DNA of 58,863 bases from the NCBI GenBank assembly GCA_963205185.1, contig CAUJHZ010000020.1:1-58863 (forward strand). Direction: 5' to 3'. Of this stretch, positions 56,055 through 58,732 are shown in pieces. The notes under the pieces are model-generated. The model saw only the letters and a list, made by a program, of their open reading frames with translations. It was not told the origin of the DNA and ran no database searches. The DNA comes from Planctomycetota bacterium (GTDB lineage: Bacteria > Planctomycetota > Phycisphaerae > Phycisphaerales > UBA5793). Every line of letters starts with the position of its first letter. Positions within the stretch are counted from its first letter, which is position 1. Position numbers and translations under genes: made by a program.

Positions 56055-56279
56055 CGCTTCACCCTCCATCCGCCGCGACCGTCCCGCGCGGCCCTGACGC
56101 CAGGGCCCGCACCGACACCGCATCGAGCGGTATCGCTATGTTTCGGAGACCTGCCACATGAACTTGACAGCCAATGCGCCCGGCGCGCGGACAACCGCCG
56201 CCCACACCGGCTGGTTCAATAATCCCAAGCCGCACACGCCGCCAACGCCACGCCCGACAACTCAGGCGGGTCCAATACA

Positions 56280-56903
56280 GAGGCAGACCTCGATTGGCGG
56301 CGAAGACCCGCGCCGGAGGCTTCCTCTCAGGCGAGCACCTATGGAAGTTCGATGACTTCGATGGCGTGCGATGAGCGCGGCAACTTGCGGCGCATTGGTT
56401 CTGTTGCCCACAAGATTCCCCACTCGCCCGCGCGTCGCGCTGCGATGGGCAATCCGAAGCACAAGCCCACGCAGCCGGTGATTGCGGCGCTGTGCCCCGA
56501 GACGCGCCAGGTCCGCGTCCGCGTGATTGCCGACGTAAAGGCCAACACGCTTCGCGGCGCCCTCGGTGAACTGGTTGCGAAGTCGGCCACGCTGCACACT
56601 GATGAACTGATGCAGTACCGGAGCATCGGCCGCGAGTACGCCGGGCATCAAGCCGTCCGCCACAAGTCAGGCCAGTACGTCCGCCCGGACGGCATGACTA
56701 CGAATCAAATCGAAGGCTTCTTCTCAGTGCTCAAGCGTGGAATCTACGGCACGTTCCACAACGTCAGCCGAAAGCACCTGCAAAGGTACTGCGATGAGTT
56801 CGAGTTCCGCTACAACCATCGGAAGATGGAAGATGGAGAGCGGACGGTTGCCGCGATCCGCGGAGCCGAAGGGAAGCGGCTGATGTACAAGGAACCAGCG
56901 TAG
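56280..56903 (+). pseudogene. Degenerate IS1595/ISXO2-type transposase
   Basis: The intact C-terminal part (from about 56352) matches the DDE domain of the ISXO2/IS1595 family: VRVIADVKANTLRG, LHTDELMQYRS, GMTTNQIEGFFSVLKRGI and KHLQRYCDEFEFRYNHR. The N-terminal zinc ribbon and first catalytic segment are missing or decayed; only a TSIGGE remnant of the DETYIGG motif is visible near 56284 in another frame. Not expected to be active. The stop codon is two bases from the neighbouring tRNA. Confidence 0.75.
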
Positions 56904-56905
56904 AA

Positions 56906-56994
56906 TACCCCCGACGAGGATTGAACCCGCACAACGAGACGCGCTCGCTACTACATTCCAAATGCAGCGTGTCTACCACTTTCACCACGGGGGC
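56906..56994 (-). tRNA. Leu-like type II tRNA with anticodon UGG
   Basis: 89-nt minus-strand cloverleaf: acceptor GCCCCCG/CGGGGGT, leucine-like D-arm GTGGTGAAAGTGGTAGACAC, anticodon stem CTGCA/TGTAG with loop TTTGGAA (anticodon UGG), a long variable arm (AGCGAG-CGCGT-CTCGTT) and a T-arm with GTTCAATCC. Discriminator A. All stems pair, allowing G-U. The body is leucine type, yet UGG would decode proline CCA. CCA end not encoded. Confidence 0.85.
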
Positions 56995-57020
56995 GCGAAG
57001 TTTCGCGAGGCAATGCCGCG

Positions 57021-57329
57021 CTACGCTTCGCTGCCTTCTGCACGCTTGGGGTAGTGGTCGAGTAGTTTTGTCATGATGTCCACCATAGATTGAGCGTGCT
57101 TTCTTGACATGGCAACACGTACGATTTCCGGTCGGTTGTCTTCGCCGAAGACGGCTTGGTAGAAAGAAAGCACGCAAATCTCAGCGTCCCCGCGTGTGCT
57201 AAATCGCATGTTGTCAACCCAAATGGTTGGGAGCGATTGATTCGTTCGCAGTTGAGCATCCGCAGACGTTGCAGGAGGTGCTTTGCTATTCTGATTGTCA
57301 GGCCGTGCGGGTTTCTTCCGCTTTGTCAT
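57021..57329 (-). CDS. Small protein downstream of the HTH/toxin-like pair
   Basis: About 102 residues (start 57329; 57359 possible). Basic N-terminus (MTKRKKPARPDNQNSK), then TIWVDNMRFSTRGDAEICVLSFYQ and VAMSRKHAQSMVDIMTKLLDHYPK, which faintly recalls DUF3467 proteins. The start overlaps the end of the HTH gene by 32 bases, so it is probably the third gene of that operon. Base composition is lower in GC than the main chromosome. Confidence 0.55.
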   Translation of the reverse strand: MTKRKKPARPDNQNSKAPPATSADAQLRTNQSLPTIWVDNMRFSTRGDAEICVLSFYQAVFGEDNRPEIVRVAMSRKHAQSMVDIMTKLLDHYPKRAEGSEA

Positions 57330-57726
57330 AGGGGTTCGCCTCACTGCCAGTGTTGTCATAGTCTTTGATATTGGCGATCACGTCGGTAGTTTCTCCCCTT
57401 GGCACATCGGGCGTCGTGGCGCGTTTGCGTTCGTCTACCGGAAGTTCAAGGCCACTGTTTAGGTTCGTGATCCGGAAGTGCAAATCGCTACCGAGTAGAG
57501 AGTAAATGTCGGCCAGAGTTTCAAGTGTGAAGTTGTGTGTTCCACTGAGGAACTTTGTCACCAATGATCGCTTCTGCTTTCCACCAAGCAAATCTGCAAA
57601 TCCTGATTTGGTCAACTCGGCGTCGTCCATCAACATATGAATACCCAACGCAGCCTCGTGGGCGAGACGTTGGCGGTTGAAGTCTACTGGCTTACTGTCG
57701 GGAAGTATTTGTATCACTGATTCCAT
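57298..57726 (-). CDS. XRE-type helix-turn-helix protein, antitoxin-like
   Basis: 142 residues; HTH core AELTKSGFADLLGGKQKRSLVTKFLSG (helix-turn-helix about residues 36-62), followed by LETLADIYSLLGSDLHFRI, then an acidic disordered tail. It overlaps the upstream gene by 13 bases. Order and overlap (possible toxin first, HTH second) resemble higBA-type modules, so it probably neutralises its partner and autoregulates the promoter; inference. Confidence 0.65.
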   Translation of the reverse strand: MESVIQILPDSKPVDFNRQRLAHEAALGIHMLMDDAELTKSGFADLLGGKQKRSLVTKFLSGTHNFTLETLADIYSLLGSDLHFRITNLNSGLELPVDERKRATTPDVPRGETTDVIANIKDYDNTGSEANPYDKAEETRTA

Positions 57727-58115
57727 TTCTCTAGGTGCTCCCGTCTAGCCGACTCAGTTACACCGCCATTTGGACCAACTGTCCCGCGATGATCCGTCTT
57801 CCAGAAGTGGGTTATGTACCAGACCCCTGCCTCAATGAACGCCCCCGCTCGCCAGCACACATTGTCGTGATCAGCCTTGAACTCCCATGCGTACTTCTTT
57901 TCCCTGATCTTTCGAACCCAACAACTCTTCATCGATCCAGTCAGACACACTGAGTCGAACGTGAACTGGAATTTGTGCGCCACCTTGTAATCGCGCTTGT
58001 GTTCTGATTCGCACCACCGGGCCCACTGCTCCATTGTGTCCTGCTTGCCCGTCCAGTCGGCAAACCGGATCGTGTACTTGTCCCCCTTGCTATTCAGTTT
58101 CAGGGGATTGGCCAT
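57714..58115 (-). CDS. Possible type II toxin-like protein
   Basis: 133 residues starting at ATG 58115, 14 bases beyond a clear -10 box. Contains YKVAHKFQFTFDSVC, KIREKKYAWEFKADHDNVCWR and WYITHFWKTDHRG with a C-terminal RREHLEKW, which is reminiscent of HigB/Gp49-like RelE-fold toxins. Similarity is weak and judged by eye; it could also be a phage-type protein. First gene of a three-gene operon. Confidence 0.5.
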   Translation of the reverse strand: MANPLKLNSKGDKYTIRFADWTGKQDTMEQWARWCESEHKRDYKVAHKFQFTFDSVCLTGSMKSCWVRKIREKKYAWEFKADHDNVCWRAGAFIEAGVWYITHFWKTDHRGTVGPNGGVTESARREHLEKWNQ

Positions 58116-58128
58116 TCAGTTCACCTAT

Positions 58129-58157
58129 AGTATAACCGGCCTTTTCGGGAGTTGCAA
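58129..58157 (-). promoter_or_regulatory. Sigma70-type promoter of the HTH/toxin-like operon with inverted repeat
   Basis: On the minus strand TTGCAA (58157-58152), a 17-base spacer and TATACT (58134-58129), then ATG at 58115. The 7-base inverted repeat AACCGGC (58134-58140) and GCCGGTT (58158-58164) brackets the spacer and -35 region, a likely operator for the HTH protein. Confidence 0.7.
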
Positions 58158-58180
58158 GCCGGTTCAGCGTAGAATGTGCC

Positions 58181-58348
58181 ATGCCGAAAGACCACCAGCC
58201 CGATAAACCCGGCCCCGAGCCAGAACGCCTCAAGATTGAGGGCAACTGGACGGAAGCGGTCCAGAAGGCCCTGCGCAAAGGCAAGACCGCACCCGAACCG
58301 GCGAATCAGCCGGACGGGCCGGGCAAGACCAAGCGCAAGGCGAAATAG
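58181..58348 (+). CDS. Small basic protein with EGNWxxAVxKAL motif
   Basis: 55 residues: MPKDHQPDKPGPEPERLKIE, then GNWTEAVQKALRKGKTAPEP and a lysine-rich end (GKTKRKAK). I recognise the type as a short protein recurring next to mobile elements, but function is unknown. It is divergent from the HTH/toxin-like operon and followed by a hairpin with a T run. Too short for a firm assignment. Confidence 0.6.
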   Translation: MPKDHQPDKPGPEPERLKIEGNWTEAVQKALRKGKTAPEPANQPDGPGKTKRKAK

Positions 58349-58375
58349 CCGGGCGGCTAGCCCGACTGGTTCAAA

Positions 58376-58394
58376 GGCCCTGCGGGGCCGTTTT
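58376..58394 (+). terminator. Intrinsic terminator after the small basic protein
   Basis: GGCCC/GGGCC stem with a TGCG loop followed by GTTTT, 27 bases past the stop at 58348. Classical intrinsic terminator form. Confidence 0.65.
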
Positions 58395-58732
58395 CAACAA
58401 GTACACACTTCCGAAAAAAAGCAGAAGCCGATTCACCCGAGGGTGAGGCGGCTTCGCGGCCTGCCCCGAAGGACAGGGGGGTTACTGTCATGGGAGTCTA
58501 CCAATTATTCGGATCGGTTCCATTCCGGGTTCGGTTCCTTTTTTGCCTCCCACTGGGAGATCCATCCACCGCAGTACGGAGCCCGGCTCCATGAAGCCAT
58601 CCCAGACCGCCACGCCCCCGCGGCAGACGCCTCAACTCCAGTAGCGAGAGTGCAATCCCCATCCCAACCCTCCCGTCCTCGCAACGCACAGCGCATGAAA
58701 CACCGGCGCGGCCGGCGCGCCGGTAAGAGCCC
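58395..58732. other. Non-coding stretch between terminator and IS end
   Basis: No gene recognised. There are several short GC palindromes (GCGGCTTCGCGGCC near 58450 and a CCTGCCCC/AGGGGGG pair near 58460-58482). The right part probably includes the terminus of the IS element ending near 58733, but no inverted repeat could be confirmed within the window. Confidence 0.4.

Follow-up and report, generated by a model that had tools for sequence, protein, structure and literature searches.

Leucine-type tRNAs with proline anticodons carried by IS1595-family transposons, and a matching reserved codon in the transposase genes

The stretch of DNA analyzed here (the window) is one entire contig (C20, 58,863 bases) of a 4.55-Mb Planctomycetota genome assembled in 76 contigs. 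Near its end is a long-variable-arm tRNA gene that lies between the remnant of a transposase gene and a row of small open reading frames. Table 1 displays the positions of these features. The special sites mentioned there are described below.

Table 1. Features of the tRNA-bearing element remnant and their positions in the window.
Feature	Position	Strand	Evidence or remark
IS1595/ISXO2-family transposase remnant, C-terminal catalytic part, convergent with the tRNA	56223..56903	+	PF12762; 226-aa open frame
CCA codon at the C-terminal special site, GKRLMYKE[P]A	56895..56897	+	only CCA in ORF 56352-56903
Leucine-type long-variable-arm tRNA, UGG; element passenger	56906..56994	-	ARAGORN; Rfam; covariation in 19 aligned tRNAs
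Anticodon UGG within loop UUUGGAA	56958..56960	-	sequence; ARAGORN position 35
112-aa cargo ORF, weakly DUF3467-like	57021..57359	-	Pfam E 0.048; ends 27 nt before tRNA
142-aa cargo ORF, resembles PADLOC candidate family PDC-M64	57298..57726	-	E 1e-8
133-aa orphan cargo ORF	57714..58115	-	
55-aa ORF within element end	58181..58348	+	ORF list; Pfam
Surviving terminal inverted repeat (CGGAAGTGTGTACTTGTTGAAAA), outer edge 58413	58391..58413	-	kin to the ends of intact relatives

A preliminary description, made from the sequence alone, had proposed a leucine-type tRNA that carries a UGG (proline) anticodon. ARAGORN, Rfam and direct reading all confirm this tRNA on the minus strand. ARAGORN names it tRNA-Pro(tgg), and the Rfam model RF00005 gives 40.7 bits (cut-off 29), the lowest score of the 47 tRNA matches in its own genome. 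Direct reading shows the acceptor stem to be GCCCCCG/CGGGGGU with a G1.U72 wobble pair, and the T arm to be GCGGG/CUCGU with two G.U pairs. The discriminator is A73, the D stem has 3 bp with a leucine-like D loop (AAAGUGGUAGA), and the variable arm AGCGAG/CUCGUU forms six pairs, one of them G.U; these three details are as previously described. The gene does not encode the CCA end.

The previously described fold of all arms holds by tRNA models and by covariation but not by single-sequence free energy, which favors another fold (z -1.74); the support for the window tRNA thus comes from the models and from its relatives. In an alignment of 19 such tRNAs, 97.1% of the cells are paired and the covariation score is 0.846 vs. 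0.214 in shuffles. Covariation is present in all five helices and was counted as a sign that the tRNA is under selection in the family. Window-type tRNAs have a 7-bp acceptor stem and a 5-bp T stem, and a 12-bp acceptor domain of the 8/4 or 9/3 type is absent. The window tRNA itself is weakened by G1.U72 and several further G.U pairs. Its gene could still be transcribed, yet it may equally well be a relic.

The decayed transposase said to abut the tRNA is a real IS1595-type fragment (PF12762, E-value = 5.5e-32, on the ORF at 56352–56903). Its N-terminal part is missing, and what is left can be aligned with 18 relatives. The remnant (56223–56903) is the sole PF12762 match in its genome. The ORFs of 133, 142 and 112 aa form an overlapping, operon-like row on the strand of the tRNA and upstream of it (57021–58115), which we take to resemble a toxin-antitoxin or candidate defense set. 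The PDC-M64-like ORF is read as a helix-turn-helix protein. Among 61 genomes searched, the 133-aa ORF was found in its own genome only, and it was not found in viral contigs, plasmids or phages. The 15-bp core of the terminal repeat (58399–58413) is the single match in the window at two or fewer mismatches (0.16 expected). The opposite end of the element was sought in the window and not found, therefore 56223–58413 is a minimum extent. The window copy is a decayed remnant, with a truncated transposase and a weakened tRNA. The end of the contig (58740–58863) looks like a further insertion sequence on the minus strand, which could account for the break of the contig at this point.

The tRNA sets of the genome are otherwise normal. 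Proline tRNAs with UGG, CGG and GGG anticodons and leucine tRNAs with UAA, CAA, CAG, UAG and GAG are present, which rules out a missing isoacceptor; the window tRNA is an extra one that fills no gap. A conserved family gene is ruled out as well, since 100 relatives display weak partial matches and no full-length match. A search of the phage and plasmid collections found no copy of the window tRNA.

A search pattern that combined a leucine D arm with an NGG anticodon after it matched 115 stretches in a collection of genomes from 84,980 species; viral contigs gave 31. The 149 parsed matches, including that of the window, comprise 43 complete tRNAs (40 distinct) and 106 incomplete matches, which served as a control set for the transposase association. 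Many pattern matches were rejected, being read as group I introns of leucine tRNA genes or as clostridial copies of 5′ tRNA halves. The 43 include two pairs with a poorer fit, L268/L280 from Prevotella, with U73, and L262/L265, in which the variable arm is short. Locus titles name Planctomycetota, Acidobacteriota, Chloroflexi, a number of proteobacterial groups and further taxa. In the group of the window such tRNAs are rare: three of 400 genomes of the order have one, and the window's genome stands alone among 392 of the phylum.

Several other unusual tRNA sequences were seen during these searches. Genomes of gut Clostridia have scattered, repeated 5′ halves of leucine-type tRNAs in which NGG occupies the anticodon position and the 3′ half is absent (L253 with six copies, L231, L247, L245 and other Ruminococcus/Clostridia loci). 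Many phage-like contigs have long-variable-arm tRNAs whose D arm is leucine-like and whose anticodon is Asn GUU (at least 36 of the matches on 120 loci) or Asp GUC (at least 21), apparently with G73 (e.g. L067, L070, L078, L121, L142, L177). Some leucine-like long-arm tRNAs of phage-like contigs have His anticodons. Viral contigs L123, L154 and L158 carry leucine-type tRNAs with the stop-codon anticodons CUA and UUA, and these are probable leucine-inserting suppressors.

Transposases were searched for with a profile built from three planctomycete sequences. An IS1595/ISXO2-type transposase is present on 26 of the 43 loci with a complete tRNA, including the window, vs. none of the 106 incomplete matches. 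The distance between tRNA and transposase is within about 110 nt at 20 of the 26 loci (most often 5–110 nt). The usual order is the tRNA followed by the transposase in the opposite direction, and the two are convergent at 18 of the 26 loci, as in the window. For the other 17 tRNAs the fetched locus shows no transposase; a further search of 15 of these records gave a transposase match in six, one of them adjacent. A small open reading frame often precedes the tRNA. Three of ten display weak winged-helix matches (HARE-HTH, E-value = 0.009–0.07), and by Pfam these ORFs are hardly alike.

A search for inverted ends found them at nine of the 26 loci. They are 23–28 bp long (~24 bp), and they enclose the tRNA. 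All nine elements, 2,100–3,405 bp in length, have exact 8-bp target duplications. An 8-bp target-site duplication is a feature of the IS1595 family. Two Chloroflexi genomes share a 1.27-kb unit, with tRNA and transposase, that is 92.6% identical, and the flanks are different. At L306/L309 the transposase gene beside the tRNA is reduced to its two ends, and the neighboring genes are read as a putative phage terminase and portal. By these computations, a distinct group of IS1595 transposons repeatedly carries the tRNA as a passenger. The earlier alternative of a mobile allo-tRNA or a relic is borne out.

To see carriage from the side of the transposase, viral contigs were also selected by transposase only. 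There were 213 matches, and the best 80 of the 213 were fetched; seven of these 80 have a linked long-arm tRNA and 73 do not. The Rfam scan of the viral loci missed several long-arm tRNAs, and a custom model found them. Five of the seven carry a proline anticodon (L349, L350, L351, L357, L364), and two, L395 (1482–1566) and L413 (423–506), have long-arm UGC (Ala) tRNAs 0.9–1.4 kb from the IS1595-type transposase. In the clade best populated by carriers, six of ten full-length viral loci have the tRNA, and two of the four that lack it are near-copies. The tRNA label needs 10 changes on a tree of 112 transposases, vs. 25 in shuffles, with one main clade (16 carriers in 19 rows) and several separate smaller groups. 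Carriage of the tRNA is thus a trait of certain lineages within the family, and it has been gained and lost.

The codon usage of the transposases was compared between 23 elements with a UGG tRNA, three with AGG, two with UGC and 84 transposases for which no tRNA was found. The UGC elements (L395 and L413) were excluded from the UGG/AGG test; GCA is common in their transposases, not at clear sites. The idea that CCA lies at positions where relatives have leucine was set aside: it found no support in a first test of the tRNA-bearing transposases (mean Pro 0.44, mean Leu 0.01 at CCA sites) and weak support in later tests. A different pattern is displayed by five special proline columns, located at the N-terminus (one), the inter-domain linker (three) and the C-terminus (one). 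In the UGG elements CCA makes up 48 of the 52 prolines at these columns, vs. three of 122 at eleven further proline columns, each having five or more UGG rows (Fisher 2e-34, relatedness ignored). By column the counts are 11/11 at the N-terminus, 7/7, 11/11 and 4/6 in the linker, and 15/17 at the C-terminus. In transposases without a tRNA, 12 of 91 prolines at the five columns and 27 of 367 at the eleven are CCA.

The excess is not a general habit of these genes. From the A-ending habit of each gene 31 CCA codons are expected in the UGG elements, and there are 67, about twice as many; the other transposases show no such excess (93 vs. 82 expected). Among 120 four-fold degenerate columns the most A-ending are exactly the five special ones (67–100%), and the next reaches 38%. 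As the P values ignore relatedness, this four-fold control, together with the occurrence in separate clades, is the better argument. At the C-terminal site of the tRNA elements the CCA triplet alone is kept and the neighboring bases vary.

The codon also tends to change with the anticodon. The ratio of CCA to CCT is 67:23 in the 23 UGG transposases and 3:10 in the three AGG transposases (p = 5e-4, relatedness ignored). L232 (AGG) has CCT at the N-terminal, linker and C-terminal sites, L364 (AGG) at the linker and C-terminal sites, and a remnant that is a fourth AGG element (L324/L343) at the C-terminal site. In the L436 transposase CCA is absent and CCT occurs four times. The anticodon of this element, which was read only later, is AGG; its special sites have CCC (N-terminal), CCG (linker) and CTG (Leu, C-terminal). 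An exception is L274, with a UGG anticodon and CCT at the C-terminal site. L431 and L438, in which a tRNA was not found, still have CCA at special sites. Thus the transposases reserve a codon that tends to match the anticodon of the carried tRNA and almost never use it at structural prolines, and AGG elements tend toward CCT.

The small neighboring ORFs were considered as another place for such codons, and CCA is not enriched there (11 of 87 proline codons in ten ORFs). In other elements the small ORFs near the tRNA neither strictly avoid nor prefer CCA. In relatives without a tRNA, outside one clade, residues at linker column 231 are P 6, S 4, N 4 and T 4, and at the C-terminal column P 6, S 5, L 4 and T 3; with this mixture, leucine is not clearly the wanted residue. 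A large clade without the tRNA displays a CTNAY-like nucleotide pattern at the C-terminal column whatever the amino acid (e.g. L358, L366, L384), with NCT or NTT at the C-terminal site in 47 rows.

The leucine identity set of E. coli, as given in PMC9976931, consists of A73, A15-U48 and G18G19 and does not include the anticodon. All of these nucleotides are present in window-type tRNAs (alignment A4). The bacterial tRNA-Pro set is C1-G72, G15-C48, G35, G36 and A73. The window tRNA has the last three of these, with G1.U72 and A15-U48 at the other two places. Among the 19 aligned tRNAs 15 have G1-C72 and three have C1-G72, and the ProRS of the window's own genome is of the prokaryote type. The leucine set, the general lack of C1-G72 and G15-C48 and the type of ProRS favor leucine, or a leucine/proline mixture, at CCA. 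Leucine charging of window-type tRNAs is plausible on these grounds. The preliminary description had pictured leucine at CCA codons in general; this is probably incomplete, as the likeliest mRNA to have been selected to meet this tRNA is that of the element's own transposase.

We consider it probable that the window tRNA is the passenger of a decayed IS1595-family transposon and that such a tRNA decodes the reserved codon of the transposase as leucine. Elements of 2.1–3.4 kb, in several phyla and in phage-like contigs, carry a leucine-type UGG or AGG tRNA together with varied cargo. LeuRS, which does not read the anticodon, would charge this tRNA, and CCA (or CCU) in the transposase mRNA would be translated, fully or in part, as leucine. 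How much transposase is made, or in which form, may then depend on the element's own tRNA. If the codon is not read as plain proline, its reservation for tolerant sites away from structural prolines would follow. Two purposes fit: a license that ties the transposase to the tRNA, or a control of dosage by mistranslation as copies increase. Belief and doubt are evenly matched for the stronger form, a private sense-codon code in which a working or regulated transposase is made only where the element's leucine-charged, proline-anticodon tRNA is expressed and charged.

The tRNA may instead be charged with proline and serve as extra prolyl-tRNA for element genes that contain CCA, with the leucine-shaped body an accident of origin. 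A73 and the UGG/AGG anticodon belong to the proline determinants as well, three of the aligned tRNAs have C1-G72, and several tRNA-less relatives have proline at linker column 231. The predominance of G1-C72, the wobble pair of the window, the replacement of G15-C48 by A15-U48 and the prokaryote-type ProRS all point away from proline, and the avoidance of CCA at structural prolines (3/122) would be left unexplained, so that this reading is unlikely. It is quite improbable that the special sites are a nucleotide motif in DNA or RNA and the tRNA an unrelated passenger with a coincidental anticodon. The CTNAY-like pattern shows that the C-terminal region can bear such constraints; on the other hand, a motif does not fit with conservation of the triplet alone, with the choice of CCA at five separate sites or with the tendency of AGG elements to CCT.

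A role apart from the transposase has also to be weighed: the tRNA could be a decoy, a mistranslation toxin restrained by the small neighboring protein, or a shield against host defenses that cut tRNAs. The frequent small ORF with weak winged-helix matches is in accordance with this, as is the operon-like cargo row that ends 27 nt before the window tRNA. The dissimilarity of the small ORFs is not, and codon reservation in the transposase is not predicted, which makes such roles very improbable. A chance relic, i.e. a leucine tRNA gene with a mutated anticodon near an insertion sequence fragment, might be suspected from the window copy (lowest-scoring tRNA of its genome, truncated transposase) and from the 100 relatives without a copy beyond weak partial matches. 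The same arrangement, inverted ends and target duplications included, recurs with many distinct tRNAs in several phyla; for the family, chance is already contradicted, and for the window it is hardly credible. The passenger tRNA that decodes the reserved codon as leucine is thus the reading preferred here.

Insertion sequences are usually viewed as barely more than a transposase and its ends. If the preferred reading is true, these elements represent a minimal, horizontally moving recoding system in which transposition is tied to tRNA supply. They would also allow sense-codon ambiguity to be studied where it occurs naturally, and would supply tRNAs from several phyla that already combine a leucine shape with the reading of proline codons. 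The reading accounts for a class of “wrong anticodon” tRNAs that annotation pipelines label as tRNA-Pro or pseudogenes.

The elements share with IS1595 (ISXO2-like) insertion sequences the DDE_Tnp_IS1595 transposase, inverted ends, 8-bp duplication and cargo genes. They differ by the tRNA on board, the anticodon of which tends to match the reserved codon of their own transposase; we know of no IS1595 member described with such a tRNA. A search of the open-licence literature for tRNA passengers of IS1595/ISXO2 or other transposons, and for allo-tRNAs with transposases, found no such system.

Allo-tRNAs of Acidobacteria, Proteobacteria and Clostridia, in which body and anticodon disagree (Mukai et al. 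2017, cited in PMC7609411), are similar in this disagreement. Their acceptor domains are of the 8/4 or 9/3 type and their identity is serine or alanine, whereas window-type tRNAs are parsed as 7/5, are leucine-like with a proline anticodon, and lie within defined IS1595 elements. PMC7609411 also describes an Edaphobacter allo-tRNA UAU pseudogene that overlaps a transposon-related ORF, and proposes a link to transposable elements. This pseudogene is the nearest precedent; that idea precedes the present one, and the pseudogene may be a cousin. Nematode nev-tRNAs likewise have a long variable arm and a non-leucine anticodon (Gly CCC, Ile UAU). The abstract of PMC4300185 reports leucylation in vitro and no detectable mistranslation for these nematode genes, and mentions neither a mobile element nor a reserved codon. 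In phage suppressor-tRNA recoding (PMC10879173), a mobile genome likewise brings a tRNA that alters the reading of its own genes. There, stop codons and whole phage genomes are involved; here it would be a sense codon and a small transposon.
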